Of a stretch of DNA of 64,000 bases, positions 4,878-48,592 are shown piece by piece. The stretch's first letter is position 1. Each line of letters opens with the position of its first letter. Source of the stretch: Cephalotus follicularis. Taxonomy: Eukaryota > Streptophyta > Magnoliopsida > Oxalidales > Cephalotaceae. The stretch covers positions 602,613 through 666,612 of the forward strand of contig BDDD01000267.1 of the NCBI GenBank assembly GCA_001972305.1, given 5' to 3'. Below the pieces are notes generated by a model. It saw only the letters and a list, made by a program, of their open reading frames with translations. It did not search any database and was not told the origin of the DNA. Both the position numbers and the translations under genes were made by a program.

Positions 4878-6284
4878 GAAGCGTTAGATTGGGATGTCCC
4901 TGCAAGCCACGAGGTGGCTGCATATATATATGATACACTCCTTGATTGGAGATGTCCCTGCAAGCCGCGAGATGGCTACATGTATATATATTACACTGTT
5001 AATTTTTACATTCTTAGTTCCATTTGTGTTTTAATGTACATACTCCTGTAACAATGGCATATGCTATATTGTATTATCCCAAACCATCTCTATGGATCAT
5101 ATTAATTAACATGTTAATTGAATACACATATAGCACCCTGTCGTTCATAGGGTTGGATCTCATGCTTGAGAGGTTATGAGAATGAGATCCTTACTCCCTT
5201 TTGACAAAACGTTACAAGTCGTAGATTCACTTTCTTATGGCAATTGATGAACCGGATAGACTTGCTGTATTATGCTTGCTTCTGGGTTCAGTGGAGGATG
5301 GATCATCTCATTGTCATTTGGGTTTACCCTAAAGCTAATACGGGATGCATGCTGAAAAGCATGTTCATTGAATCGACCCACCATAGGAAACCTATTTGGA
5401 TAGTCAATACCTATGTCGATAGGATTCTTATAGTCTCGGTAGTGTATAGTCGATGGTGACTAGTAGGCCATACATGATCTGCATTGTTTCCTTAGACCTG
5501 AGCGGTTGACATGCTTTGTGTAGTAACCGCTTTGTTTTGATTTTCGCCTTCCCTAGCTCTAGCCATGAGCTAGCAAAAGGGTTCTATTTAGGCCTCATGG
5601 GAGTTGCATTGCGATGTATGGGCGAGTGCGCAACAGGGGATCGTCACACTTGTATTGAGTGTGATCGGCTCTATAATATCTGTGTCCGTTGTAGACTTAA
5701 AGTCCTGGCCAGGCACTGGCAGACTAGAAATGGGGTTTCCGGGGAGGTCTGTCGATAGTCTCAGTGCATACATAGATTTATAGTTATCGCGACTTTACTT
5801 GGGGTTGACATTGATCCAAACCCTAGGCCACGGTCGGAGACAAGAATGACGAGGGATACATGGCACATAAACCGATGACAGTATAAAGTATTGGTTAACC
5901 AGCTAACGATTGATAGACATGGAACTTCAGTCCACGGATCCGGGGGATGATTGGATATCATACGGGGCTATTTTAATAGTCGGGGACTATTAGGATGGTC
6001 GTATCAGAACTTCGGGATGTTCTGGAAAATTTATTATTGTACCAGAATCCAATCGGGCTTTGGGGTCCCACCTGATTTTGGAACATGTTGACGTGTGTGG
6101 GACACATGTCATTTAGTGAGAGGTTAGGATCTGGTAGATGTTACTTTGCTAGAGAACATTGTATTTGCTGGACATATGTCACTTCTTTATTATTGAGTTC
6201 AAGCATCACCATAATAAAATGTTCCGTACAAAGGGCTGATTGTTTAACAAGTAAATACTTTCGGTATTTATTTGATGAGAGAGC
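4878..6284 (+). repeat. Dispersed repeat, copy 1
   Basis: This block is closely similar to 27936-29277 in the same orientation. Both copies begin near a 'ttagattggg/ttagattaggg' phrase and pass through the same text (gaggttatgagaat, cgacccaccataggaaac, gttgacgtgtgtg). Both end with gagagagcttaag. Copy 1 has an extra ~55-bp internal duplication at 4885-4990 (atgtccctgcaagcc occurs twice). It has no coding signature. It is probably a piece of a retrotransposon (LTR or untranslated region), but I found no element boundary. A solo LTR is inserted at its right end. Confidence 0.7.
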
Positions 6285-8894
6285 TTAAGTATGACGCCCC
6301 GTCACATTTACGAGGCTAATTTGCAAAACACGTGAGCGTGCAAAACACGCGAGTAGAATATTAGTATTATTAATATTATATGTAAAAAAAAAAGGGAGTC
6401 GGGCGCGTCTAGAAGGCGCTAGACGCGCCAGACCAATTAAAAGAAACGGGCAAAGCGCCCGTGTGACATAGAGAGGGAGAGAGTTGAGACAGAGAGAAAC
6501 GCGAGAGAGAAGGAGAGATGCCGGAGATGACGTCGGGCGAGGTGCCGGACTGGGAGATGGCGCGCGGGTCTTCCTCCAACCACCGGTAAGCCTTCCTTCT
6601 CCCTCATTTCTTCTTCTTTTCTTCTTTTCTCCCCACGCCTGATGGCCACTGTCGGTGCGCGTTCGCCGCCGTTGCCATCGCGGTTTGGGCCGATCTTGGT
6701 TTACAAGACCAGCTCTACCCATCTTGACGGCCGTTGAAGCGTTATTCGGCCGAAATCGGCCGGATTTTTGCCGTTTGAGTCAAGCCGACGTTTTGACTCA
6801 CTATCACCTGGCACGCCGTGTTTTACACTGATTCCCGACGAGTCTCGGCCATCAACGTGTAGACCGGACCGTGTGGAGGCTAGTGGTGGTGTGACCGGTG
6901 TAATGGCGACTCGGCCAGAGCTCCGGCGCGGCAACAGCTGCCGAGTCTGACCGAGTTTCGGGTGGAGATGTGTAGGCCTGTTGGTTTTGTGACTTTTTTG
7001 TGAAGCGGCCTAAATTGTTGGTTGACCGACGAGTTGACTCAGTGAGTCAAACTCATTGCCTGTGGTGGCTGTCCGTTTCCGGGCGAGTCGCCGTGAGTAT
7101 GGATCAGTAATGTGAGTTGATCAGTTGTTTTAGGGGTTGTTTTGGGTGTCGACGGAACTTTGGCAGGTTGACCAGAAATTGGCCAAAGCTCCGGTGACTT
7201 ACAGTGTTAACTGCGTATGTGTAGAAAGTAACGGTTATGTGTTGTTAATGCAGTGTGACGGTTGATAGAGTTTCGAAACGATGACGAGAACCCGATAGTC
7301 GATTCAAAGCTTAACGGGGTTAGTCCGTGGTAGTATCGGCTTTGATATTGTGAGTATATTATCTCCTCCCTTTATCTTATTTGATTTTAAAATTCGTTGA
7401 TGATTGTTGTGTGCTTTATTACGATTCTTAACTATCATTTGATTTGTTGATAATCTGATTTGGAGTTTATTTCTATACTTTTTGAAAGCCTTCGTTGCTT
7501 GATTTTATCATTGTAACACCCCCGATGGTGGGAGCCCTTACAGGTCATAATACCAAACTGAAACATAACGGAATACCTAAACAGTAAACTAATGCGAAAC
7601 ATATGTGGTGGTCTAAAAACATATCTTATAACAAACTAATATAAAACAGAGTCTGAAAACTTTAACAAATCATAATTAAGACAACTATAATCCGTTGTCC
7701 AAGAAAACTAGTCTGACATTAGCTCAGAATATGATCAACACTACTGAAAACACAATGGACCAACTCCTAGCTGATCCTCTGATAAGTGGGTAACTCTCAT
7801 CACACGTTTCCTCCATCCTTCTGAAAACCTGATGCATGGAAACAAAAACGCGGCTGAGCAAACCTCAGTACGGATAAGGAAGTAAAGAAATAAACGGTAA
7901 ACAAAATATCTTGAACTTAAAACATAGTAAATATTCTTTAAGATGTAAAACAGAATATGAGCAGTTATAAAATCATCATAACTTTACGAAAACATAACAT
8001 CATAATTCGAAACTTTATCTGATTTCATAATTCCATAACAGAGAATTCTGACATACATACATATATAGGTGCAAGGGGTTCGCGAGGTCCACATGCTCTG
8101 ACGGAAGAGTCGTGTATGGCACTACACAAACAATCCCAAATACTGAATTTCTGAATTCTGACAATAACTAGAGTATACCCATACGCCTCAAAAGGATCCA
8201 TATCCTACTCTCAGGATACATATTTAAAAAAGACGCCGTAGACCAATCACACCGCCACGGTAGGTGTCATGTCCTCCGTGCCAAAGAACATGCCTATGAT
8301 ACCTCATAGGTAGGGTTTTTCTCTGTATGTTATTATGCTAAAACTTTGTTTTATTATAAAACAATTCTAAAATGTACTTAGGTAAACTGTCTCCAGACAT
8401 ATCTGAAATTATTTAAAGAGGATCATACTTTCATTTGAAAATCCAAAATCAAAATCCGATCTGTATCTGAAGTATAACACACTCCCTAAAGTGGAAGCCA
8501 TGTCTAGAACAATATCACATTTTCGATAACAGAAAATATGTAAATTAATATCCGATGTAATCATAAATCCGTTTCAATATAATTATTGTCAAAACGAGGA
8601 TATCCAACCAAAATATGAATTTCATTCCGAATAAAACCAGAAGCATAATCATAAAAGCATAAATCCGTTCAAGAACGATGTATCAGTAAAAATTGAATTT
8701 ATTTAATTTAATCGAAGGAATATCCAAGAATCGAAGAATCCGTACCTTAGCAGGTCGAAAATCTAAGCAATCTAGAATACCGGACAAAAGCACCCTAGAA
8801 GTGTTCTAAACTCTACCACGAACGATATTAAGACCTAAACATATGAGTCCAAACATCACATAACATAAAAAGAACGAAAAATCAAAACTGCCAT

Positions 8895-27935: not shown

Positions 27936-29277
27936 TGTTAGATTAGGGTGTCCTTACAAGCCATGAGGTGGCTACAAGCATGTGTATTACACATGTGTTA
28001 CACTCTTATGCCTACATTTTTAGTTTCAGTTATGTTTTATGTGCATATTCTTGTAAAAATGGCATTTGTTATATGTAATATCACAACTCGTCATTACGGA
28101 TCAGTTAATCACCATGTTAACTGAATACACATATAGCACCCTGTCGATAAAGGGTTGGATCTCGTGCCTAGGAGGTTATGAGAATAAGATCCTTACTCCC
28201 TTCTGACAAAGCGTTCCAAGTCATAGGTTCACTTTCTAAGGGAAATTGATGAACCGGATAGACTTGCCGTGTTATGCTTGCTCCCGAGTGTTAATGGAGG
28301 ATGGATCATCTCATTGCCATTTGGGTTTACCCTAAAGCTGATGCGGGGTGCATGCTGGATGCATGTCACTGAACCGACCCACCATAGGAAACCTATTTGG
28401 ATGGTCATTACTTTGGTCAATAAGATTCCTATAGTCTCGATAGTGTATAGTCGATGGAGATTAGTAGGTCATACGTGACCTGTGTTGTGTCTTTAGACCT
28501 GAGTGGCTGACATGCGTTATGTGGTTACCACTTAGCTTTGATTTTCGCCTTCCCCCATTCTATCCACGAGCGGGCAAAATGGTTGTCTTTGGGCCTTGTG
28601 GGAGCTGCATTGAGATGTATGAGCAAGTGCACAATAAGGGATAGTCACACCTGTAATGAAGGTGAATGACTTTATAATATCTGTGACCGTTATAGACTTA
28701 AATCCTGGCCAGGTATAGGCAGATTGTAAATGGGATTTCCGGGGAGGTCTGTCGATAGTCTCAATGCGTTCATAGATTTATAGTTATCGTTGTCTTACCT
28801 AGGGTTGACATTTATCCGAGCCCTAGTCCACGGTCGGAGCCAAATATGACGAGGGATACATGACACATAAACCGATGACATGATAAAGTACTGGTTAAGT
28901 GGCTAATGGATGATAGACGTGGAGGTCCACGGAACTAGGGGATGAATATCATACCGGGGCTGTTTTGATAGTCTTGGACTATTAGGATAGTCGTACCAGA
29001 ACTTAGAGATGTTCTGGAAAATTTATCACTATACCGGGAACCAACCAGGCTTTCGGGTCCCACCTGATTTTGGAACAGGTTGACGTGTGTGAGATACATG
29101 TCATTTAGTGAGAGATTAGCATCGGGGGGATGTTACTTTGCTAGTGAACATTTTGTTTGCTAAACATATATCACTTCTTTAAAAGTGAGTTCGAGCATCA
29201 CCATGATAGTGCGAAGGGTTGTTTGTTTAAACATATGAATACAATGGGTATTTATTTGTTGAGAGAGCTTAAGGACG
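27936..29277 (+). repeat. Dispersed repeat, copy 2
   Basis: This is the same sequence as 4878-6284, in direct orientation about 23 kb away. It lacks the 55-bp internal duplication and the LTR insertion. After the shared gagagagcttaag end, the two copies are followed by different sequence. Confidence 0.7.
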
Positions 29278-33953: not shown

Positions 33954-34829
33954 TGATATGGGGAAAAATTGGTTTATACCAAGAATGACACGTGTCCTCC
34001 GCGGACATAGCCAAGTATCCAGGGGCTTTAAAGTTTACATGGATACGGGTCAGAGGAAGTTTATCAAGCCTTGGAAGGAGAAGCAGATGGAGATATCCTC
34101 CTCGGCATCAGTGCTGAGGAACTCCTCCTTAGTGATGTTGTAGAATCCACCCTCCTCGGCATAAGTGCCGAGGACCTCCTTTCCAACATCAGTGCCCAAG
34201 ACCTAGCCAAGGGGCTCCTCCTCAACTGCACTGTAGAAGGTCTTTTCCTCAGCAGCTTAGCAGAGGACCTAATGTTTCAAACGCCAGCCCTTGAAGAAGA
34301 TTTTGAAGTTGAAGACCTTGAAGTGGATAAATAACAAGAGAACCTATCTCTCCTCATCCTCGGCAGGACAAGGCCATAAAATCAGCCTACTTTCTAGGGA
34401 TTCACCTCTTCCAAATATGGAAGATGAGATATAATAAACTACCTACAAGGAAAGTAGCGACAAATCAGGTGGAGATAAGGGAAATCCCGAGATCCTCGGC
34501 ATTTCCTTAGGGGACAGCTATCACCTCCGTATTTCACGCTCAGACAATTACAAAGCAGCACTATAAATACAAGAATCAAAGACATATCTCAGGTCATCCA
34601 TTTTTACCTTTGATAGAACCTTGTTTTCTCTGTGCAAAGCCTAACTTGAGCGTCGGAGTGTCCCCGTGAGAACAACCTCCTGGACCTTCAACGTGTTTGC
34701 TCCTCTGTGCAGGGAAAACACTCACAGTTATCCTCAACCTTCATCTCGGAGCATTAAAACAACGTTTCCCTAAACAAATCAAGCCCTTACACTTGGGGTA
34801 CTGTTGAGGGAAGAATTTTTGCATCAACA
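33954..34829 (+). repeat. 5' LTR of the Tat element
   Basis: It pairs with 47712-48587. A TATA box (ctataaatac, about 34561) lies in the last third. Three imperfect ~42-bp units around 34090-34210 (cctcctcggcatcagtgc, gaggacctcc) make a local repeat, which stays open in one reading frame in both LTRs. Confidence 0.95.
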
Positions 34830-34855
34830 GTTGCCGCCATCTGTAAGAAACGCAG
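34830..34855 (+). other. Presumed primer-binding region
   Basis: The sequence directly after the LTR is gttgccgccatctgtaag. It resembles the ggcgccgtctgtggg context usual in Tat elements but differs at several positions, so the tRNA primer cannot be named with confidence. Confidence 0.4.
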
Positions 34856-34874
34856 CAAAAAGCCATCAACAATC

Positions 34875-36595
34875 ATGCCTCCGAGAAAGAACAACAACCA
34901 TTTTGGAGCCATAGGCAGCCAACAATAGGAGATCACACCTCCTCTCCCAGAAGCCATCCAAGTTGTGGCCCAAGAGCAAGCTTCCGTCACAGGGGAACAA
35001 CTCAATCAATTAATCCAAGGGGTGGAGCGCCTCAACCATTTGTTGGTCACAAGTTTGGCCAACCAACAGCAGCATGCCGGGCCTATCCCGCCAGTGGTCC
35101 GAGGGGGTTCTGGTCCTAGCAGGCCAGTGGTGGAGACACGGCACCCCCGAGGTGCCAGGCGAAACCCGCCGATGGGAGACGAACTTCCCCCAAGGCGGTC
35201 AGGGGATAATGTTCCCCTGGGGAGGTGACCTGAGATCAATGCATCTCAGAGGGCAGAGTCCTCAACTGCACGGGATCAGCCCAACGATCCCAGGAGAGCG
35301 TGCCCTGAACACCACACCATGGACGTAGATCCTCAAGAGGGAGTCAGGGAAGCAGAGGAGGCACAAGTGCGCTCCAACGCTTCGCGTGGAGCTGGTACGG
35401 CACGAGGAAACAGGATCGACCGCCCAGCCACAGTGGCTGGAGGGTCACATGTTTCTAGCAGGGCTAGGAACATTGAGGATGTGGAGCAAGCAATGAACAA
35501 AAACCTTGTTGAGTTGGAAAGAAGGTTCTGAGGAGCAGAACAGAGGAGGGGACATCTGTCCGAGGTGCACAACATTAGCGCCCACCCCTTCACACCCGAG
35601 ATCATGGTAGAGCGAGTCCCCAACGAGTTTCGGTTCCCAAGCCTTGACAAATATGACGGGTCCACGGACCCCATCCAACATGTGCGCTCCTACATTTAAG
35701 CCATGTGGATGTACCAAGTCTCGGACGCTACACTTTGCAGAGGATTCCCAGCGACACTAACTGGAGCTGCCCAGTCGTGGTATTTCACCTTGGCAAAAGG
35801 TTCGGTGGAGAATTTCGATCAGTTTACGGAACTATTCGTGACCAAGTTCCTCAACAGCACAACGTAGAGGAGAAACTCTACTCACCTGATCAATGTGGTG
35901 CAGGGTAAAGATGAGTCCCTGAGAGATTACCTCACCAGATTCAACAGGGAATCTCTCACAGTGAAAGATTTGGAGCCATCCTTTGCACTTGCAGCTTTTA
36001 ACAGCGGGCTGAGGAGCAACTCATCCTTCACCTTCTCTCTTCTGAAGAGACCCGCGGTGTACATGACAAATTTGCTGAGAAGAGCAGAGAGATACGTCAA
36101 TGCCGAGGAAGAGAGGGCAGCCAGGAAACAAAAGACACCCTGGTCAAGCCAGTAGGAGGAGAAGGGGAGCATTCACGAAATGCCCCCGAGAAGAAAGAGA
36201 AGAGGAAGGAGAGGTCGGACTTGTCCATGGAAGACCTTAGACATAAACTCTCCAGACGAGAGAGCTTATCCAAGGGAGGGGCACCAATCCTGTCCTACAA
36301 TAACTTTGCCCCCCTCCTGGACACACGCACCAGAATACTCGCTGTGGGGCAAGATAAGGTCCCCATCCAGTGGCCCAAGAAGATGAGGTCCCTGGCAGAG
36401 AAGAGGGACACAGAAAAATACTGCTGGTACCATCGTGACCATGGCCACGATACCGAGGAGTGCAGACAATTAAAGAATCATATTGAGGACCTGATTCGGA
36501 AGGGGCACCTGTGCAAGTATGTCGACAGAGATGCTCCCCAGGAAAGAAGTGAGCAAAGAAGAGAAGAGGCTTCTTGGCAAAAAGAGGAGCAGTAG
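34875..36595 (+). pseudogene. gag of the Tat element
   Basis: The first ATG after the LTR is at 34875 (MPPRKNNN). The capsid-type retrotransposon gag domain spans about 35600-36150, with LTGAAQSWYFTLAKGS, QFTELFVTKF, then VQGKDESLRDYLTRFNRE. The zinc knuckle CWYHRDHGHDTEEC is at about 36420-36465. Lesions: in-frame stops near 34926, 35529, 35698 and 35866, and a single-base frame change near 36140 that separates the capsid and zinc-knuckle frames. After it, the frame runs into protease and pol, suggesting a single Gag-Pol frame in the intact ancestor. Several stops replace likely CGA/CAG/CAA codons. Confidence 0.88.
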
Positions 36596-36607
36596 CAGGA
36601 GCAACCC

Positions 36608-37863
36608 ATGGGTGTCATTCACACCATCTTTTGGGGGGTCTCGTCTGGCGGTGACCACAAGAATGATAGAAAAGCTTATGGGAGGCAGTCACTTGCTGTG
36701 CAACAGGTTCATCACAACAAAAGGCTGAGAACTGGTGGAGATGAGGAGGTTATATCCTTCACAAAGGCGGACTATGAGGGAGTACGTCCCCCTCATGATG
36801 ACCCAATGGTGGTAAATCTTCAAGTGGCTCTTTTCACTATGAAGATGATTCTCATTGACAGCGGGAGCTCTGCCGACATCATATACAAACATGCATTCGA
36901 TCAGCTGAGGATACCGGAAGACCAGCTCAAGCTCGTAAAGACCCCACTAGTTGGCTTCACAGGCGAGATGGTCCATCCTCTGGGTTCCATCGACCTGTCC
37001 GTGGTTGCAGGCACGGCCCCATGCCAAACTCAGGTAGAGATGACCTTCCGGGTGGTTGATACACCAAACCCATATAATGCAATAATCGGGCGACCAGGGC
37101 TCAACCTAATGGAGGCAATAGTGTTGGTGAGACACTTGTTGATGAAGTTCCCCACAAGGTTTGGCGTGGGGGAGGTCAGAGGAGATTAACAGGTAGCAAG
37201 GCAGTGCTAATAAACTGCCATCATGGACAAAGGGAAGGACAAGGTGCTTCCAATAGCAAACATGAAGCTCAGAAGAGACATAGAACTTGAGCGTCCACAG
37301 CCTGTTGAGGACATGGTCCAAGTGTCCTTGGAAGAGGGCAACACTGAAAAATTGTTCCAAGTTGGCTCACAGCTTGGAGAGGTGGAGAAGGGAGAATTAA
37401 TAACATTCCTCTGAAATAACAAAGACGTGTTTGCCTGGTCGGCAGAGGAGGTCCCTGGGATCAGCCCAAATGTCATGGTTCACAAACTAAGTGTGGACCC
37501 AATGAGACCTCCGACCAGACAAAAGAAGAGGAACATTGCTCCAGAGAGGCAGCAGGCAATAACAGAGGAGGTGAGCAAGCTATTGCAGGCAGGGTTCATA
37601 AGGGAAGTGCATTACTCAGACTGGCTGGCGAACCCAGTACTAGTCAAAAAAGCAAATGGCAAGTGGATGATGTTCATCGACTTCACAGACCTCAACAAAG
37701 CCTACCCAAAGGATCACTTCTCTCTCCTAAAGATAGACCAGTTGGTGGATGCAACCTCAGGTTACAGAATGTAAAGCTTCTTGGACGCCTACTCGGGATA
37801 CAATCAAATTCCCATGTACGGGCCCGACGAGAACAAAATAGCTTTCATCACGGACCGAGGAAT
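36608..37863 (+). pseudogene. Protease and N-terminal half of reverse transcriptase
   Basis: An aspartic protease is seen at about 36800-37130, with active site ILIDSGSSADII and the flap-side motif NAIIGRPGLN. The reverse transcriptase begins near 37560: AGFIREVHYSDWLANPVLVK, MFIDFTDLNKAYPKDHF, then DAYSGYNQIPM. In-frame stops occur at 37187, 37412 and 37772. The coding is cut at 37863-37868 by the 2856-bp LTR and resumes in the same frame at 40730, once the insert and its 5-bp duplicate are discounted. Confidence 0.9.
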
Positions 37864-37868
37864 GTATT

Positions 37869-40724
37869 TGTAAGAGCCCTAAAAATTATAAAATATTATT
37901 ACTGGGCCTTGTAATTATTTTCCCACTTTTTGGGCTGGACCCGAATTTATAACGTATTTATTTGGGCCTTAATGGGGTGTAAATTATTATCTCAGGCTTA
38001 AGAATTATTTTATTGGGCCAAGATTAATATTGTATATGGTTATTGGACTTAAAAATTTAAAAAGAAAAGACTATTGAAGAAGGCAGCCCAAGCCCAAAGA
38101 ATGGCCTGCATTCCTTTGGAATTTCATGAAAATTCCAGAGCCTTCTGTTAGCTAGTATATAAGGAGAATGGTGGTCATGAAATAGGCTTTGGCATTTTAC
38201 ATACACTCTGGAAAAATCGAGAGAAGTGAGAAAGTGGGAGTTGGGACCGGCTGTTGGCAGGAAGGGAGAAAGAAGACAAGAGGAAGGTCCACCCACTTTG
38301 CATGAGCTGTGATCTTTAAATACCCACTTTATGGGAGTAAAGGAAATAGAGCAAGAGTAATGGAAGGAGACTACCTGAACGTGTGATAGTCCTTGGCAAG
38401 GAAGGAAGTCCAGAAATTGAGGAACAAGTAGACCATCTCCGTTTCCAACCACCTCCAGGTAGGTTGCTCCATATCCGAGTGCCTACCAGCATGTGTATAT
38501 ATGTATTTATTTAGTGTGTTTTATTGCTTGTCTGCTGTGTGTGTGTGTCCTCTGCTTGTTATTCTCGTTGCTATTAGTTAGAAATGGGTTGTAATCATGT
38601 AATAATAGTAAGAGAAGGAAATGAACATTAAGCTACTGAAGGCTTTTCCTAGCTAACAGTGTGCCTCGCGCGTGATTGCCTTCCACTGCCCGTTTCGTGC
38701 GCCACTGTTACATAAACAGTACACTCGTGAGGGACGCCACATGCAGAGGAGTGGTGGGATGTTGAGATTTAATAGCCATGCTCACCTACCACACCTGAAC
38801 TCCACTGCCAACACTGGAGATGACGGGCCGAGATGCTGAGGTGGTAAGCATCCAAGGAGCCACTGTAACTCTCCTCTGCATGATTGAGCAGTGACCCCTC
38901 CTCTGCCAGGCGTACCCGAACTTCCTGCCAATTACAGTGGCGAGGTACCAAAGACGCTGGTGAAGAAATACCAGATGTGCTGGGCCGAGAATCCGAGTTA
39001 TACCATGTCCGAGCTCCACCAAGCTCGATCGACCTCTACCATGGCCGAGGAGCCAACCTGGACTCCACTGACCATGCACACCAAGCGTGTGTCCATAGCA
39101 TGGCATGGAGGACGTTGAGCTCCTCTGCCCTACCTGTGATGACGTGCAGTGATGCCATTCTCTCCCCTGCCATGGCGCCAGTGGTAGAGGTGCAGAGCCC
39201 ACATGTCCGAGGTGCCACTGCTGCCAACCGCCCGAGGAGAAATGCCCGTGGAGAAATACCCGTGGTGCCGAGGTGACCTGCCGGGGTGCCACCGCCCGAG
39301 CACAGGTGCAAAGGACTCATCCGTGCAAGACGCCGAGAACACCATGCGCAGAGGACGTCCTTGTCCCCTGCCATGCGTCTCGTTCTCTGTCGTAGCACTG
39401 GAGACGCACCAGTCTCATGTGTCCAAGGAAGCCGGGCCATGCATCCCAAGCATGGCATAGCGCCGGAGCTATTCACGAAGACGCCCTTGCACTCTCCTCT
39501 GTTCTACCCGAGGACGCGCCATAACAGAGCACCATAGTCGACCTGCACTCATGAAGCTTGTCCACTGCTAACAGCGCCAAACTCCCGAGGACCAAGTGCA
39601 GGGGACACCCTCGTCCACTGTCACACGTCCCAAGCGCGCTGCATCAAGCGCCATGGTTCTAGGATGAACGATGACGAGGATGAGCTTGGCGCCAATATTC
39701 AAACGCTATGGCATGCACGCAGCTAACGAAATGAGAAGGGATTTAGGAACAATTGCCCGCACGGTGCGTTTAGCACCAAACACATGCATGCGTTTTAAAG
39801 AATAAAACATGATACCATCCTTACGCCATGCACACGTAGGGCTTCGTGTAGGAAGCGCCAGACACAGTGTATTTTAATTGGACTTAAAGAATGGATTATT
39901 AAATGTTAAAGAAGAGGAATAGAATCAGTAAAGGAAGTTTAAGGATAATACCAGGCTGGTGAGCCCAACTGGGGAGAATTCCGCCGAGCAGGTGAACCCA
40001 ATGGGTGAATACCGCGAGGCAGGTGATCCTCGGGCGAATCCGCTAATGGTGAACCTAAAGGTGAATTCTGCCAGAGCTGGTGATCCAAAGGGTGAACCGT
40101 CAGAGCAGGTGAGCAAAGGGCGAATTCCGCTCGGCAGGTGAACCTGGAAGAGAATTCCGCGGGCAGGTGAGCCTAAAGGTGAACCATGTATATTGACCAG
40201 ACCATAGGATGACCGGACTAGACTCCTCTGTGCTATGATTTTATGTATGATTCGAGTAGAGTAGTCCGAGGATAAAAGTGTGATGATGATTATGATTTGC
40301 ATATTTATTATTTTCTACTCTGTTTGCATTGTTTGTTCCTCTGGTATGTGCCCGCATATGGGGTGACCTACACAACCCTCAGGGTTGCGGACCCATTCCT
40401 TTGAATGGGCCAGGTACAGGTACAGGTAGAGGAGGCACATCGCAGCAGCGCTAGAGACAAAAGATTATTGCGTAAGTACCTCCTCGACAGTACGCTCTCA
40501 AGGGTAAAGTTGCAAGAAAATAAATTATGTATTTATTTTATTCTGGTTCATGGCGATATGTAATTTGTATAATTCGAACTGGGTCTGTAATCCACACATT
40601 AAATAAATGTTTATGTTCATGATTTGTTTATACGTTTTAAATTTTTATGGAAATTATTGACATTGATTGTACGGATTGCCACGTGTCGAATCGTGGGGCC
40701 CATCCCACGTTTCGGGGCGTGACA
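37869..40724 (+). mobile_element. Solo LTR, family C copy 1, inside the reverse transcriptase
   Basis: Target duplications gtatt lie at 37864-37868 and 40725-40729. The ends are tgtaagagccct and ggcgtgaca. A second copy is at 52171-60318. It has a TATA box at 38156-38164 and a donor-like ccag|gtaggt at 38459, both at equivalent positions in copy 2. A GC-rich part with many ccgag words follows (38780-39640), then a tandem array at 39955-40187. Long frames in the GC-rich part show no domain and are probably compositional. Orientation is taken from the TATA box. Confidence 0.92.
39955..40187. repeat. Tandem array in family C LTR (about 30-bp units)
   Basis: Roughly eight imperfect units of the form gcaggtgaacc...gggtgaattccgc follow each other. 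The same array is present at 53938-54165 in the second copy, so it is part of the family rather than a local expansion. Confidence 0.8.
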
Positions 40725-40729
40725 GTATT

Positions 40730-41676
40730 GCTACAAGGTTATGCCCTTCGGCCTGAAGAATGCAGGGGCCACCTTCCAACATTTGATGAACAAAATCTTT
40801 GAGCCTCAGATTAGGAAAAATATGGAGGTCTACATCGACGACATACTCGTCAAGACCCCAGCCAGGAGCCCCCACATAAAAGACTTGGAGGAAACGTTTG
40901 AAGTGTTGAGGAGATACAACATGAAACTCAATCCATCCAAGTGCACATTTGGGGTCACCTCTGGCAAGTTCCTCGGATTCATGGTCTCCAGCAGAGGAAT
41001 AGAGGCCAATCTAGAGAATATCTCGGCAATTCAGAGCATAAGGCCTCCTCAAACCATTAGGGATGTTCAAAGGCTAAATGAGAAGATTGCAGCCCTGAGC
41101 AGGTTTGTGTCAAAGTTAGCAGAGAAGTGCCTCCCTTTCTTCAAAATACTCAAGGATCCCAAGGGATTTTCTTGGTCAGACGACTGCCAAGCAGCCTTTG
41201 ACAAGTTGAAGGAATACCTGGCTTCCCCTACTCTGATCTCAAAACCTAAGGATGGGGGAGACTTGTAATTGTACCTCGCGGCCACCTGGGGCGCAGTGAG
41301 TGCAATGTTAGTTAGAGAAGAGGAAAAAGTTCAAAAGTCAGTGTACTATGTGAGCAAGGCTTTGAATGATGCTGAAGGGAGGAACCCAGAGGTAGAGAAG
41401 TTTGCATATGCTTTGATTATCTCGGCCAGAAAACTGAGGCCATATTTCCAAGCCCATACAATCAAGGTTCTGACTGACAAACCACTCAAACAAGTTCTTG
41501 CGAAACCTGACACCTCAGGCAGGTTAATTAAGTGGTCAGTCGAGCTAGGCGAGTATGATGTGAAGTTTGAAGCCAGACCAGCTATCAAATCACAGGTCCT
41601 GGCCGACTTTGTTGGAGATAATACACCTACGGAGTGTATGGAGGAGGATCCCTCCGAGAGCGAGAAGGGGATTTAG
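40730..41676 (+). pseudogene. C-terminal half of reverse transcriptase and first RNase H
   Basis: The reverse transcriptase catalytic motif VYIDDILVKT is present, preceded by VMPFGLKNAGATFQHLMNKI. The connection region PLKQVLAKPDTSGRL and RNase H text (KSVYYVSKALNDAEGRNPEV, LRPYFQAHTIKVLTD) follow. One in-frame stop falls near 41266. The active-site residues themselves are intact, so the block to function is the insertion and the stops. Confidence 0.92.
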
Positions 41677-42300
41677 AAGTTATCTGTGGATGGCTTATCC
41701 TGCATCACTGGAAGTGGAGCAGGACTGGTATTGATGAGTCCAGATGGTTGGACGTTAAAGTATGCTCTGAGGTTCAAATTTAAAGTTACAAACAACGAAG
41801 CTGAGTGGGAAGCTCTGATAGCTGGGCTGACTATTGCCAAGCACTTGGAGGTACAAAATGTGGAGGCCTCCAGTGATTCTTAGCTAGTGGTTGGACTAGC
41901 AAATGAAGAGTATGAAGCCCGAGAAGACTTTATGACGAAATACTTATCCCATTTTCAGAGTATGAAGTCAGCCTTTGAGTTTCTGAGAGTTTTGAAAGTA
42001 CCTAGAGCAGAAAACACCTGAGCAAACCAATTATCAAAACTAGCCACGGCAGAGGAGCTGGAGAAAAATCAAACCATGCTAGTGGACTACCTGGACAAGC
42101 CCACCATCTCTGAAGTAGATGTAATGGACATAGATGTACCATAGGAGCCAAACTGGATGACTCCCTTTATTAATTGGCTAAGGAATGAGATTCTTTCCGA
42201 GGACCCCGTGGAGGCGAGGAAGCTGGTCTACAGAGCAAACAGATTCCAATTTTGAGATGGGATCCTCTATAAAAGATCTTTCTCTTTTCCTTGGCTAAGA
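41677..42300 (+). pseudogene. Second (archaeal-type) RNase H domain of Tat lineage
   Basis: KLSVDGLSCITGSGAGLVLM, followed by FKVTNNEAEWEALIAGL and EASSDS*LVV, has the D...E...D arrangement of an RNase H separate from the pol RNase H. It lies between the latter and integrase. An additional domain of this type is known for the plant Tat clade. In-frame stops at 41674, 41881, 42019, 42142 and 42253 break it. The Q after SDS is replaced by a stop (CAG to TAG). Confidence 0.85.
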
Positions 42301-42303
42301 TGT

Positions 42304-43389
42304 ATGACCCCCTTAGAGGCCGAGTATTCTCTAAGGGAAGTCCACAAAGGAATTTGTGGCAACCACACGGGGGGTAGAACATTGTCTCACAAGCTATTGA
42401 GACAAGGCTACTACTGGCCGACTATGCATCAAGATGCAATAGACTTGGTAAGAAAGTGTGACAAGTGTCAGAGGAACGCAAACATAAGCAGAAGACCTTC
42501 TCAACCTCTGATGTCTATCACGGCCCCATGGTCCTTTGCACAATGGGGAATGGACTTCGTCGGACCATTACCCATGGCGACAAGCCAGAGGAAGTTTCTC
42601 ATCGTAGCAGTAGACTACTTCACCAAGTGGGTGGAAGCAGAACCCCTAGCTACAATTACCGAGAAGAACACAGAGAGTTTCATATGGAAATCAATCATCT
42701 GCAGATTTGGAGTCCCGAGGACAATTGTCTCAGACAATGGTAAACAGTTTGATTACCAAGATTTCCGTGACTTTTGCAAAGAGTGGAGGATAGAGCATAG
42801 GCTTGCCTTAGTAGCCTACCCCCAAAGCAATGGTCAAGCCGAGGTGATCAACAGAGAAATCATCTCATGCTTGAAGAAGCGCCTCGAAGACAGCAAAGGA
42901 AGATGGACAGAGGAGCTACCAAGCGTGCTATGGGCATACAGAACAACTCCTCGGACCACAACTGGTGAGTCCCCATACAGTATATATTTCGGAGCTGAAG
43001 CCATGATACCAGTAGAGATTGAAGTACAATCACCAAGAGTTGTACATTTCACTGAAGACAACAATGAAGAAGGTCTCAGGTGCATCCTCGACCTAGTGGA
43101 AGAGCTCAGAGATAAGGCCACCACCAGAGTTGCAGGCTGCCAGCAGAGGGTGAGCTGCTATTATAACAGAAGAGTAAGCCCCAGACCACTAAGGCAATGA
43201 GATCTAGTCCTGCGCAACTCGGCTGTTGTAGACCCCACCGGTACCAGAGGAAAACCAGCCCCTGCCTGGGAAGGGCCATACAAAATCAAGAGGGTTTTCC
43301 GCCCAAGAACATTCAAACTTGAAACTTTGGGGGGTAGGGAGATTGCCAGAGTTTGGAATGCCGAGCATCTGAGGAAGTACTATCAATGA
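42304..43389 (+). pseudogene. Integrase of the Tat element
   Basis: The N-terminal HHCC zinc finger is seen (VHKGICGNH, then VRKCDKCQR). The DDE core is present as WGMDFVGPLP, TIVSDNGKQF and NGQAEVINREI. The C-terminal part reads APAWEGPYKIKRVFRP, and the natural stop is at 43387-43389. A stop at 43198 lies just before the DLVLR motif. All three acidic catalytic residues are present. No chromodomain is seen, in keeping with a non-chromovirus lineage. Confidence 0.93.
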
Positions 43390-43700
43390 TTGAAGGTGTA
43401 CTGAATAAAGTTGAATTTTTTAAAACACTTGTTCAATATCATAGTTCCAAGCTTGCAAGGGACCGGAGGTCCAATGTTCATGTCCTCGAACCTCTGAACA
43501 GTCACCGATCAACTCCCTCAGGCTTTACTTCAAGCATGTCTGACCACGCTCCCAAGGGGGCATTCAGAGTACAGCCTGACATCAGTCCAGTGCTTTCTAA
43601 GTTGTCTTACAAAGACTAGCCCCCAAGAGAAAACAAACATAGTCGAGGTCTCGAACAGACTGAGGTAACAAACGTCCGAGAAAACACTCAAGGACACATT

Positions 43701-43976
43701 TGAATAAACTACAATTGAATAAACTGCCTGAATCTGAGCGTCGACGCTTGGAGTGTAATTTCCAATTCTCCAAGTGCTTCACCGGTAGGCGCTTTGTTCT
43801 TGTGTCGACCGCCAGCTAAAGCGCAGACGCTTTAATTTCAGGCGTCGGCGGTCTGGGCAGTTTCTGCATAATTTCTACTGATATGTTTAGCTTTTGTCTT
43901 TCTTGCACAAAAAGAAACTTTGTTAAATACAAATATGTTATCATCAAAACTTAGGATTGAGACATAAATGTCAACA
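43701..43976 (-). mobile_element. Short (276 bp) solo-LTR-like element related to family E
   Basis: It is flanked by acatt at 43696-43700 and 43977-43981, with TG...CA ends (tgaataaac ... tgtcaaca). Read on the minus strand, its first ~60 bp (tgttgacatttatgtctcaa, cctaagttttgatgataac) match the start of the family E LTR at 58121. It also contains three or four GCGTCGACGCTT-like words (43735-43850). It is far shorter than the 1041-bp family E LTR, so it is either an internally deleted copy or a different short family. Confidence 0.75.
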
Positions 43977-43983
43977 ACATTCA

Positions 43984-44110
43984 TAAAAGACTCCTTCCGA
44001 GGAGCATCCTAAATACTCCTTTCGAGGAGGAAATAAAAGCCTTCTTCCGAGGAGCATACAAAAGACTCCTTCCGAGGAGCACCAAAAGACTTCCAAGGAA
44101 GCACTAAGAC
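43984..44110. repeat. Tandem repeats of a CTCCTTCCGAGGAGCA-type unit
   Basis: Four or five copies of a ~28-bp unit containing the palindromic core ctccttccgaggag lie between the integrase and the antisense gene. Confidence 0.75.
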
Positions 44111-44657
44111 TCCCTTGGGAGCAAACACTGGTCGGCAACACCATACGAACTTGACCAACCAGACCTAAAATCGTGACTTGAAAGGCGAATCCATGGGAAC
44201 TCGCAACGATCAAGTTCATCAGACTAAGCACTTTAATACAAGGGTCCCTACGTGGACGACATGCTTAGCCAGCCTGCCCCAAAACCTAATGGGTCAGACG
44301 ATACCCTGTTCGACAAACCCATAGGAACTTATCCGAGCAGACCAAGACCTTAGTCTATGAACACAGAAGAACTCGTAAAGACTAAGTTGAAATAAAATGT
44401 CCTACGAGGACTATTAAGCCTAAGTGTTAACTTCTACGAGAAGTCAGTAATTTGGGCTAAGACAAAATTCTTAAGGGAATTGTAAACATACATATATATG
44501 CAGAGTGCAAACACATCAAGCTCACGATACAAAAAGTAAAGGTAGAGATCCAAGTATGCAAAAAGGTTCTTTTCTCATTCATATTTAAAAAGTTTACAAG
44601 TACAAGAGAAGCCAAAAATCTATTACAAGGCAAAAATAAAAAAGCTAGCCTACAAAA

Positions 44658-46097
44658 CTAAGCCGTGGGAGGAGCATCAATAGAAGATTCATCCTCTAGA
44701 GGTAGAGGAACAAAAGGTCCAGTCCGAAGAGGTTGAGGAGTGACGAGATCCGATGAGGGAGCAAATGAAGCAGAGGCCAACGCAGGATCCGACAGAGGAA
44801 CTGTCGTCACGGCTGACCCATCTCCTCCAGCCTCGTTTCCTTGGCCGACTACAGCTTCAGAGGCAGGTTGGATTTCCTCTTCCTCTTCCACAGCCCCTTG
44901 GCCGGCTCTTTCTTCCAAGGCTTCTTCATCCTTCACCTCCTCGGCTTCATAACGGTCGGGATAGTAGTCGAAGGCCTTGGCAGCCGAGCAGTAGGCAACC
45001 TCGTCCAAGGGAACCTCGGGATGAAGAGCTTTAACCCAGTTCTGGCAAGTGTAGAATCCCCGACGATAGTACCCGGCGGATTCCTTGAAGACTTCATCAC
45101 CAAAGGCTTCTGAAGCTTTGTAATCCTCCACGGAGGCCTCCATCAAGCTCTGGAATTCGTCCGAGGACTTGAACTCCATCAGGGCGTCCTCCACTGCCTT
45201 AACCCGCAGTTCCTCCTGTTTCTTGACGGAATCTTCTAACTTCTTTTGCAATGCCCGGTACTGGTCGCCGATCTTGGAGAGGTCCTTTATCATTTGGTCC
45301 CTCTCCATGAGGGCTTTGTTCTTCTCCTCCACAGCAGACTCCTGAGCCTTGAGGACTTCCTCAAGCCGAGCCTTGGCCAAGCGCGAGGTCTCCATCTCCA
45401 CCATCAACTCCTCCCTCGCTTTGTCATACCTCTCCAAGATGATCAAAAAATTTTCGACCAAGAGGTGATGATCATTCAGAGCCTGCAAGAAAGACGCAGA
45501 AGTAAGAAGAAGAATGGAAAGCATATAAGAAGAAGAATGCAAAGCACACAAGGAGAGGATCCCTCTTACCATGAAATGGCTCTGCAGGGAGTTATGGATC
45601 AAGTCCTTGTTGGTCCAGTCTTTCCTCTCTTTCAGCTCGTCAGGAAAGAGGCACAGGGAGCTGAGAGCAAATGGGACCCCGGGGTTGTCCAAGCTGGTGG
45701 TCCCATTCCCCACCACCTCCAGCTCTTCAATCATTTTCTCCACATCCCGAGGAGGAGGCAGGATGATGGGGTTGTTAGAAGTCTTGCCGAGAGTAGACTC
45801 GACCTCAACCTCTGACACACGCTTCCCCTTTTTGCTTGGAGGCTTAGGAGGAATGTCTGAGGAACGCCCCCCAGCAGGACGCATGGTTCCTTTCTCCTTT
45901 GCCGCCGCAGAAGCCTTTTTCATATGTTTGGCCCCCTCGGCAGCGGCCTTCGCTCTTTGCCTAGCCCCCTCGGCAGCATCCTTTTCCTTCTGATTGGCCC
46001 CCTCCGCGGCAGCCTTCTGCTTGGATCCTTCAGCAGACGAAGGATTGGTGATCTTGGTAACCTTGAAGAGTGCATCGAATCCTTGCCGAGAATCCAT
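44658..46097 (-). CDS. Antisense gene of Tat element, 3' part: Lys/Ala-rich and coiled-coil protein
   Basis: A 479-residue open frame. Residues about 20-70 hold 11-residue units of the type AAEGAxxKxKxA (EGSKQKAAAEGANQKEKDAA). Residues about 215-330 are a long charged coiled coil. After that comes a conserved-looking block (ESAGYYRRGFYTCQNWVKAL), then an acidic, Ser/Pro-rich tail. An 87-nt intron (45569-45483, gtaaga...ttgcag) appears to lie inside the frame and is divisible by three; removing it deletes a hydrophobic stretch that does not fit. The start at 46097 follows a tttgtgtag acceptor, so this is likely the downstream exon of the gene starting at 47092. The biochemical function of such antisense ORFs is not known. 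Confidence 0.7.
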   Translation of the reverse strand: MDSRQGFDALFKVTKITNPSSAEGSKQKAAAEGANQKEKDAAEGARQRAKAAAEGAKHMKKASAAAKEKGTMRPAGGRSSDIPPKPPSKKGKRVSEVEVESTLGKTSNNPIILPPPRDVEKMIEELEVVGNGTTSLDNPGVPFALSSLCLFPDELKERKDWTNKDLIHNSLQSHFMVRGILSLCALHSSSYMLSILLLTSASFLQALNDHHLLVENFLIILERYDKAREELMVEMETSRLAKARLEEVLKAQESAVEEKNKALMERDQMIKDLSKIGDQYRALQKKLEDSVKKQEELRVKAVEDALMEFKSSDEFQSLMEASVEDYKASEAFGDEVFKESAGYYRRGFYTCQNWVKALHPEVPLDEVAYCSAAKAFDYYPDRYEAEEVKDEEALEERAGQGAVEEEEEIQPASEAVVGQGNEAGGDGSAVTTVPLSDPALASASFAPSSDLVTPQPLRTGPFVPLPLEDESSIDAPPTA

Positions 46098-46217
46098 CGC
46101 TACACAAAAAAGAGGTAAAAAAGGTTAGGAGCATGGCAACAGATAATGAAAAAACAGAAGAAATATGAAGACAAGAACTGGAGGACAAGAAGGCTTTATA
46201 CAGCTTTCCTCGGACAC

Positions 46218-47092
46218 TTAGGGCATGGGTTTATCTGGGGACCCCCCTCCCCCTGAGGTGTCCTCGACATCTGCCGAGTAGGATCCTCGGGTGGGAACTA
46301 CGCTCAGCCCGACTAGGAGCAAACGATCCTCGACCACAGTGGAGTTCACCTCCTCGGGCTCCAAGAGCAAGAGTTTGCCGAGGTCAACATTCTCTGTCGT
46401 TGTCAAAGGGGACCTCCTGTTAAAAGGTGGTGCTTCCATAGAATCGCACCAGGCAGATGGGGTGAACCCTTCGAAGTTCTTTATGAGGAAGTACCTCCTC
46501 CTCCAATTTTTGATGGACTTAGTGGGGTTCAAAAGAAGCTTTTTTGTACCGAGACGAGACTTGAAGAAATACCCTCGCCCCCTAGAGAGGACGGGATGAC
46601 GTGGGACTCTTTAAATAGCCCCACTGTTGTATTTACCTCGGATTCTAGACATCTAACCAGGAAGCCTATGATAAAGCTCCAAGACTGAGGTTGGAGAAGA
46701 GAAGGGTGGAGATGAAATGCCTCTAAGACTGAGATGGCGAAAGAGGGCACTGGGACCCTTAAGCCATGGGAAAGCGCACCTTCAAAGACCGCGAAAAGAC
46801 CCTTCCTACTCTCGGTAACCATCCGAGGATCCGAGGGGAGACTAAATCTCAACCCAGCAGGGAAGTTATACTTGCGAGAAAGCTCTAACACTTCATCGCG
46901 AGAGAGAGTGCTGACACCAAAGCAATCCGGAGCTGGGGTATCAGCCTCGGCGATGGGGGCAGCTGGGTCACCCACCGCAGCCCCCAGGCTGCCTTCGGAG
47001 GAGAGGGGACTTTCGGTGGTGGGAACCACCATGGCCAGGGGTTCGACTTCTAAAGGAGGAGATGACCTAGCAGTCTGCTTAGTTCTAGCCAT
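46218..47092 (-). CDS. Antisense gene of Tat element, 5' part: Transposase_28-type protein with histone H3-like N terminus
   Basis: The frame starts at an ATG (47092) preceded immediately by an in-frame TAG, so the start is unambiguous. After Met it reads ARTKQTAR, identical to residues 1-8 of mature histone H3, then SSPPLE. Residues 60-165 resemble the 'putative gypsy type transposon' domain (PF04195): LSRKYNFPAGLRFSLPSD, LFAVFEGALSHGLRVPVPSF and SWSFIIGFLVRC. The frame ends at 46529, but the expected continuation (TKKLLLNPTKSIKNWRRRYF) is in another frame (46532-46218), so a one-base lesion near 46580-46600 is likely. An acceptor at 47093 with a donor at 47168 suggests a 76-nt leader intron. 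It is antisense to the element's genomic RNA. Confidence 0.72.
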
Positions 47093-47296
47093 CTATGTCA
47101 GACGAAAAAAGAAGAAACTAGAGAAATCCTAGGTTGAACTTAAAACAACAAGAAGACTGGCAACTTACCAAAAATATGAACGAGAGAATGGCAGAAAGAT
47201 GAAGATTTGAAGGCATTGTAAATCTCAGTAGCTCTCAGCAACACGACGAAGATTAGAGATTGAAGGAGTAAAAGGTTTTCTTTGAGAAAAAGATAT

Positions 47297-47305
47297 CCTT
47301 TTATA
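47297..47305 (-). promoter_or_regulatory. TATA box for the antisense gene
   Basis: On the minus strand the sequence reads TATAAAAGG, about 205 bp upstream of the ATG at 47092. This leaves room for a leader of roughly 175 nt that includes the proposed 76-nt intron (47168-47093). It suggests the antisense gene has its own promoter rather than relying on the 3' LTR. Confidence 0.55.
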
Positions 47306-47688
47306 GACTTGTAGCTCGGATCCTGGCCCTCCACATCGCACATATCCAACGGCTGAGGAATGAACCGTCAAATTAGATGCGGGAGACGAAGAGACAGAGG
47401 CGGGAAACGCTCAGTCTATGCCACGTATAAGTCGTGTTCAATACGCAACTTAAATGCAAATGATTTGGGCTCGCGACACGAGGTCCGTTAGCAGAGATAG
47501 ATCCAGACATAAGGCAAGCTTTAATCCTCTGCTAAGGCGAGCTCAGTTTTGTGTCAGAGGATCACTAAAAGCTACACCTTCAGACCTCAGTTCTTCCGCA
47601 CGTGGACAAGTGTATATAAAGTTTCCCGGAGGAGTTCGGCCCCAGTCACGACTCCTAGCTCTGTTCCTCCTCCTCTGACCACGGTCAG

Positions 47689-47708
47689 AGAAGAAGGACC
47701 AGGGGGGC
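47689..47708 (+). other. Polypurine tract
   Basis: agaagaaggaccagggggg lies three bases before the 3' LTR, the expected position for the plus-strand primer. Confidence 0.8.
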
Positions 47709-47711
47709 ATA

Positions 47712-48587
47712 TGATATGGGAAAAATTTGGTTTATACCAAGAATGACACGTGTCCTCCGCGGACATAGCCAAGTGTCCAGGGGATTTAAAGTTTACATGG
47801 ATACTGGTCAGAGGAAGCTTATCAAGCCCTGACAGGAGAAGCAGATGGAGATATCCTCCTCGGCATTAGTGCCGAGGAACTCCTCCTTAGTGATGTTGTA
47901 GAATCCACCCTCCTCGGCATAAGTTCCGAGGACCTCATTTCCAACATCAGTGCCGAGGACCTAGCCAAAGGGCTCCTCCTCAACTGCACTGTAGAAGATC
48001 TTTTCCTCGGCAGCTTGGCAAAGGACCTAATGTTTCAGGCGCCAGCCCTTGAAGAAGCTTTTGAAGTTGAAGACCTTGAAGTGGATAAATAACAAGAGAA
48101 ACTATCTCTCCTCATCCTCGACAGGACAAGGCCATAAAATCAGCCTACTTTCTAGGGATTCACCTCTTCCAAATATGGAAGATGAGATATAATAAACTAC
48201 CTTCAAGGAAAGTAGCGACAAATCAGGTGGAGATAAGGGAAATCCTGAGATCATCGGCATTTCCTTAGGGGACAGCTATCACCTCCGCATTTCACGCTCA
48301 GACAGTTACAAAGTAGCACTATAAATCCAAGAATCAAAGACATATCTCAGGTCAGCCATTTTTACATTTGAAATAACCTTGTTTTCTCTGTGCAAAGCCT
48401 AACTTGAGCGTCGGAGTGTCCCCAGGAGAACAACCTCCTGGACCTTCAATGTGTTTGCTCCTCTGTGCAGGGAAAACACTCACAGTTATCCTCAACCTTC
48501 ATCTCAGAGCATTAAAGCAGCGTTTCCCTAAACAAATCAAGCCCTTACACGAAGGGTATTGTTGAGGGAAAGATTTTTGCATCAACA
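47712..48587 (+). repeat. 3' LTR of the Tat element
   Basis: It has the same length and ends as the 5' LTR (33954-34829). Substitutions are scattered; the two differ at roughly 40-45 positions by eye. Confidence 0.95.
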
Positions 48588-48592
48588 GGTAC

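Follow-up and report, generated by a model that had tools for sequence, protein, structure and literature searches.

An antisense gene carried by an LTR retrotransposon of Cephalotus follicularis encodes a protein whose first eight residues after the Met (ARTKQTAR) are identical, 8/8, to residues 1-8 of mature histone H3. Within one subfamily of such genes, here called subfamily A, a comparison of copies shows that the residues of this motif are held while the underlying DNA drifts, which is purifying selection, in a sample that was ranked by the N terminus too. The reading preferred here, held with a confidence that stays somewhat short of one half, is that the H3-like N terminus is ancestral, has been selected in at least one subfamily, and may act on host readers as a short mimic of the H3 tail.

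The element and its antisense gene

The window, i.e. the whole stretch of DNA that was analysed (64 kb), contains the element and its antisense gene with the following features.

33954..48588, plus strand: LTR retrotransposon of the Retand/Tat kind, from LTR to LTR (LTR pair together with sense RT, RNase H and integrase fragments)
46529..47092, minus strand: antisense ORF that starts MARTKQTAR and contains Transposase_28 (TRP28) (translation and Pfam)
47066..47089, minus strand: the eight codons of ARTKQTAR, equal to H3 residues 1-8 (translation, DNA pattern and conservation in 81 copies)
46610..46786, minus strand: Transposase_28 domain (PF04195), residues 103-161 (34 bits against a cut-off of 26.2)
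46583..46595, minus strand: change of reading frame in the homology, at which this copy is broken (tblastn of P0001 and P0002 against the window)
44658..46097, minus strand: further antisense ORF of 479 aa (without a Pfam match above the cut-off)

The LTRs of the element are the direct repeats at 33954-34830 and 47712-48588, which are 877 bp long and 94.5% identical. Inside the pair, the sense pol has RT, RNase H and integrase in that order, and the antisense TRP28 (PF04195) ORF is flanked by the integrase ORF (42304-43200) and the 3' LTR (47712-48588). By this layout the element is a Ty3-gypsy LTR retrotransposon of the Retand/Tat type. In the window copy the sense pol (40741-43200) is broken up, with RT, RNase H and integrase spread over several ORFs, and the element therefore looks inactive. 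Elsewhere in the window, another direct repeat of about 1.3 kb (4953-6289 and 27949-29273, 82% identical and 23 kb apart) perhaps represents the LTRs of another, older element.

Translation of 46529-47092 on the minus strand gives M-ARTKQTAR-SSPPLEVEPLAM..., 187 aa in all, with a TAG codon immediately 5' of the ATG, and so confirms the initial annotation, according to which the protein starts with H3(1-8) behind a Met. The Pfam matches of this 187-aa ORF include no histone family, that is, no histone fold. Tblastn of the annotated relatives P0001 and P0002 against the window gives homology in one frame from 47032 to 46595 and in another from 46583 to 46140, and because of this frame change the window copy was rejected as a working gene. 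The ORF at 44658-46097 probably represents the downstream exon or exons of the same antisense gene. An AlphaFold model of the TRP28 protein, built with 18 sequences, has a mean pLDDT of 43.

With the six-frame composition of the window, a Met codon followed by ARTKQTAR is expected about 1.2e-7 times, by which a chance match was rejected; the degenerate DNA pattern has one match in the window and none in 100 shuffles. In the whole Cephalotus follicularis genome (1.577 Gb, 9,746 contigs), which three proteins named for this species (P0007, P0009 and P0003) match at 100%, the degenerate MARTKQTAR pattern has 285+263 = 548 exact matches, and the reversed-pattern control has 0+0. Twenty-seven of the 548 loci were read, 20 of them evenly spaced among 100 listed and seven hand-picked for different-looking codons, and all 27 are TRP28 antisense genes as judged by tblastn with queries taken from beyond the motif. 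Their best match is the window protein in 17 cases and an anchor locus, L164, in 10; L164 in turn matches P0011, an annotated TRP28 protein, at 2e-20. Several of the 27 are frame-broken themselves (e.g. L150, L151, L160 and L173). Histone genes as the source of the 548 matches were rejected on the strength of the 27 loci read, of which 0 are histone genes; those that encode H3 in the host itself must lie among the 521 other matches or be spelled otherwise.

The initial annotation also held that the likeness ends at K9, and the larger set of copies agrees. In the 81 subfamily-A copies the place of H3K9 is taken by S, P, L or A, and at the 27 loci by P, Q, A, V or S; Lys is absent from it in all 107 distinct copies tabulated (81 + 27, L031 being the same as L156). 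The arm would therefore have the K4 part of the H3 tail and lack the K9 part, which is associated with silencing. At the S10 place, 79/81 subfamily-A copies have Ser.

Conservation of the motif in subfamily A and its relatives

Subfamily A is represented by 81 copies including that of the window, taken from the 150 that were scored among 12,097 candidates; as the ranking was by likeness to the window protein, N terminus included, the sample favours conservation. The exact start MARTKQTAR is found in 44/81 copies and MARTKQT.R in 56/81. By position, the residue is kept in 72 (A1), 76 (R2), 81 (T3), 80 (K4), 77 (Q5, with three stops), 79 (T6), 63 (A7) and 79 (R8) of the 81. The 44 exact copies spell the motif in 17 different ways at the DNA level, and pairs of motif-keeping copies differ at up to 0.44 of their fourfold sites.

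When changes are placed on the tree, the internal branches carry, in codons 2-9, 21 synonymous changes and 5 nonsynonymous ones, the latter all at A7, which gives a site-corrected ratio of 0.08 and supports conservation beyond neutral expectation within subfamily A. The corresponding synonymous and nonsynonymous counts are 27/17 in the next 20 codons (ratio 0.24), 44/32 in codons 21-60 (0.27), 67/19 in codons 61-100 (0.09), and 112/35 in codons 101-170 (0.10). The TRP28 domain is thus about equally constrained as the motif (0.10 vs 0.08), and only by point estimate does the motif exceed the linker in constraint. The comparison proposed with the initial annotation, of the eight residues with the twenty that follow, comes out in the predicted direction (0.08 vs 0.24) and, with all eight codons counted, without significance (Fisher test, p = 0.11); the p value is 0.057 against codons 21-60 and 0.49 against codons 10-170. 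Leaving out A7 (codon 8), a post hoc step, lowers the p value to 0.0006 for the comparison with the next 20 codons and to 0.003 for that with codons 10-170. Of 162 eight-codon windows, 69 have a ratio no higher than that of the motif. On the terminal branches, which include decay after insertion, the motif has a ratio of 0.41, and the other segments have ratios of 0.35 to 0.75.

The TRP28 tree, which is midpoint-rooted and printed without support values, has the form ((P0010,(P0011,(C: P0007,P0016; D: P0012 and kin))),(P0005,(P0004,(G: P0003,(A: window, B: P0009 and kin))))), and identities to the window among its members range from 0.47 to 0.73. Subfamilies C, B and G were sampled at 20 loci each, out of 128, 119 and 150 scored matches, respectively; the queries start 3' of the motif, and the loci were picked to span identity or list position and not selected for the motif.

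In subfamily C, 11 of the 20 loci have an ARTK start, MARTKQT in seven of them; the others read MAMTK, MSMTK or MAMTN (R2 replaced by Met) in six cases, MARTEQT in one and MVRTKQT in one, and one has lost the start. At two of the loci (L102 and L103) the start and the domain are in different frames. The tail is followed by RRLVRRSEVVARLSP, unlike in A, and is extended to the strongly basic MARTKQTRRLVRR. Subfamily G has the exact motif in two of 20 loci, MARTNQTAR in seven, MARTKRTAR in four, MARVKRTAR in three and other starts in three, and one start is lost; Q5R, with or without changes at T3, is present in 9/20. The matches of this subfamily are mostly free of internal stops, with open frames, and the natural K4N variant (MARTNQTAR, 7/20) falls within loci L130-L138. 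In the sister subfamily B the motif is present in 0 of the 20 loci read (of 119 matches); all 20 start M.[SN]Q[ED].S, followed by a linker, SPLSVEPLAMVVPTAE, that resembles that of A. Ten copies labelled E (L150, L157, L164 and L170-L176), a label given for resemblance to L164 and not for tree placement, read MARTKQTAR, then Q or P, then a different linker; as all ten were found by the motif, its frequency in E cannot be taken from them.

Representatives of A, C, E and G that bear the motif have 7-8 of the 8 tail residues in common; those of C, E and G were chosen for carrying it, and the comparison hence speaks to recurrence and not to frequency. In the next 20 residues, aligned with gaps, only 4-6/20 are common in the pairs AC, AE, CE, CG and EG, and 13/20 in AG. 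Whether relatives share the motif, which the initial annotation left open for other plants, can thus be answered within Cephalotus follicularis, where it recurs in the diverged subfamilies C, E and G. Related antisense ORFs lacking the motif, which the initial annotation had named as a refutation, also exist in part, given the 0/20 in B and the two exact starts in G, seven of the remaining G loci having K4N. The simplest history would be an ancestral ARTKQT.R start that B has lost and that G and part of C have altered; repeated gain of the motif in the subfamilies is also conceivable. With K4N in G, loss in B and R2M in C, apparently working copies tolerate the loss of key reader contacts.

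Public gene models of subfamily B (P0001, P0002, P0009 and P0019) start at an internal Met (MVVP...), and in 20 B-type loci (L110-L129) an in-frame ATG (M.[SN]Q..) is present about 20-30 codons upstream of MVVP, so the annotated starts are probably too short. As evidence against the MARTK start the MVVP starts were rejected, because genes of the P0009 type belong to subfamily B with its own upstream start. Protein searches returned Cephalotus proteins only, 20 of them distinct. Viral contigs searched with the protein, the alignment, the integrase and the DNA motif gave no relatives, and genome contigs searched with the integrase gave a single locus, in a MAG, with 29% identity.

Under the main rival to a mimic of H3, the conserved, basic N-terminal arm would serve nuclear import or contact with nucleic acid; it would descend from a common ancestor and be H3-like without being read as H3. 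This is rather unlikely, though it would account for the strongly basic extension of the tail in C and for the tolerance of K4N, Q5R and T3V in G, and it agrees with the nuclear location reported for GENE23 of maize Grande, another antisense product, in the part of the source drawn on here (PMC7264820). Against it, T3 is kept in 81/81 and K4 in 80/81 subfamily-A copies, although Arg or Ser would keep the charge or the polarity; an exact eight-residue match to H3 is far from chance; and these basic residues are all missing from the start of subfamily B.

Start codon, with a predicted promoter and 5'UTR intron

Upstream of the motif, the following elements are predicted in the window copy.

47299..47305, minus strand: TATA box (TATAAAA) of a predicted antisense promoter
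47169..47216, minus strand: upstream ATG and 15 codons, which read in phase across the predicted intron into the MARTK exon
47093..47168, minus strand: predicted 5'UTR intron of 76 nt (donor G/GTAAGT, acceptor ATAG directly 5' of the ATG)

By a loose pattern, a TATA-like site is present at the matching distance in 71/81 subfamily-A copies. The donor is found in 77/81, AG right before the ATG in 73/81, and both in 69/81. The predicted intron is 59-83 nt long in the 81 copies, with a mean pyrimidine share of 0.80 at -30 to -6, and in the window copy a pyrimidine-rich stretch lies upstream of the ATAG acceptor. Pyrimidine-rich sequence 5' of the ATG is also seen in subfamilies C (L090-L109) and E (L170-L176); some C copies have an in-frame upstream ATG within the pyrimidine stretch, and some E copies have no AG directly before the ATG.

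The stop codon directly upstream of the ATG, which the initial annotation had reported, is indeed present, but it is the last codon of the predicted intron and hence no evidence in itself for the start. The assignment of the start to the ATG of MARTK is better founded on the first exon, which has no upstream ATG in 67 of the 77 subfamily-A copies with a donor; among the other 10, which have any first-exon ATG, it is in phase with MARTK in five (5/77), the window copy included. At the place of the window's upstream ATG, the 81 copies have GTG in 54, GTA in six and ATG in five, and in 16 the place was not located by pattern. Met at codon 1 is kept in 77/81. MARTKQTAR is therefore predicted to be normally at the first AUG of the subfamily-A mRNA, and the start as first proposed is supported for the subfamily; it is doubtful for the window copy, in which the frame is broken and the upstream ATG at 47216, if used, would bury the motif.

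Two further explanations turn on this region. Introns in the 5'UTR are also known from plant H3.3 genes, and the H3-like start might have been captured from a host H3 gene (5' exon, intron and start context) to serve as an expression leader, with a peptide that has no signalling role. Such a capture would explain the exact identity of eight residues, the start ATGGC and the intron in front of it, but it appears improbable, since no histone homology extends past residue 8 except the Ser at the S10 place in A, and the amino acids are held while the codons drift. Slightly more improbable is an internal position of the motif, reached through an upstream coding exon or a non-AUG start, which would make the likeness to H3 irrelevant to readers. 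The ATG at 47216 of the window, in phase across the predicted intron, would suit it, as would the in-phase upstream ATG of 5/77 copies and the GTG at that place in 54/81; the 67/77 donor-bearing copies without an exon-1 ATG and the codon-1 Met kept in 77/81 oppose it.

A putative mimic of the H3 tail

Shared ancestry without function, the motif surviving through recent expansion of the family, is very improbable. In its favour are the close relationship of many copies, the decay on terminal branches (ratio 0.41) and a ranking of the sample in which the N terminus counted; against it, exact pairs reach a fourfold-site distance of 0.44 with 17 DNA spellings, the internal-branch ratio is 0.08, and subfamily representatives have little common sequence in the next 20 residues.

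The N-terminal tail of H3 is read by PHD and WD40 domains. For a mimic of this tail, the following course of events is proposed. A TATA promoter belonging to the antisense TRP28 gene, within the Retand element, would drive its transcription, the transcript would lose its short 5'UTR intron, and translation would start at the ATG of MARTKQTAR. Removal of the Met by methionine aminopeptidase would expose A-R-T-K-Q-T-A-R on an arm ahead of the TRP28 domain. This arm might then dock on host readers of the free Ala1/Arg2/Lys4 end of H3 (PHD, ZZ or WD40 domains) or on H3K4 writers or erasers, and the predicted DNA-binding protein could thereby recruit or occupy chromatin factors at the element. Transcription, splicing, Met removal, the free amino end, nuclear location, reader binding and benefit to the element are all steps that we infer.

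A ZZ reader of H3 illustrates what such docking may demand. In the portion of PMC6138639 used here, Ala1 is described as caged through its NH3+ and the first four residues as making contacts; an acetyl or biotin block impedes the binding, and deletion of Ala1-Arg2 abolishes it (PMC6138639). The best-kept positions of the motif, T3, K4, T6 and R8, followed by Q5, R2 and A1, include the contacts of the ZZ reader, and A7 is free. N-terminal acetylation of the antisense protein could block reader binding. As K4N in G and the loss in B go against a strict need for H3 reading, the confidence in the mimic is kept below one half. Somewhat less probable still is a dedicated decoy or adaptor evolved by a plant retrotransposon lineage, i.e. 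an antisense-encoded DNA-binding protein with a free H3(1-8) end, having K4 but no K9, that would recruit H3K4 readers or writers or blunt silencing at the element's own copies; B, most of G and part of C would have changed or lost this end secondarily and work by another route.

To the question of what antisense TRP28 genes do, an N terminus like the H3 tail adds a concrete, testable idea. If the proposal is true, a plant retrotransposon encodes an imitation of the H3 N terminus, and the subfamily variants R2M, T3V, K4N, Q5R and full loss are a ready-made mutational series. Among the matches listed, subscription literature aside, titles and the beginnings of abstracts gave no H3 N-terminal mimic in a plant retrotransposon. 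By term search, 'histone', 'mimic' and 'intron' have no occurrence in the main text of PMC11963269, and 'histone' has none in PMC7264820 or in a sunflower study of additional ORFs (PMC11728184).

In the layout of its parts, the Cephalotus element agrees with known systems. Retand elements, in the sections of PMC11963269 relied on here, are described as having sense gag-pol and a long region between pol and the 3' LTR with an antisense TRP28 ORF, which is the arrangement found in Cephalotus; antisense TRP28 genes are reported in 97% of Retand clusters, and TRP28 is predicted to bind DNA (PMC11963269). Antisense ORFs between pol and the 3' LTR are likewise described, in the part of PMC7264820 drawn on, for gene23 of maize Grande, rice RIRE2 and Silene Retand. 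By layout the Cephalotus gene is likened to these; Grande is reported to have a promoter of its own and a nuclear product, GENE23 (PMC7264820).

Compared with the H3 tail itself, the Cephalotus arm has the same residues 1-8 and a Ser at the S10 place (79/81 in A); it differs in having no histone domain and in the replacement of K9 by S, P, L, A, V or Q. Viral histone mimics are also comparable. In the passages of PMC6972770 available here, the ARSK of influenza NS1 and the KacXXR of HDV S-HDAg are reported to engage host proteins of chromatin or transcription; these are short histone-like motifs, as here, which are internal or C-terminal and four residues long (PMC6972770). The Cephalotus motif, in contrast, has eight residues, which form the very start of the protein after a Met that could be removed.
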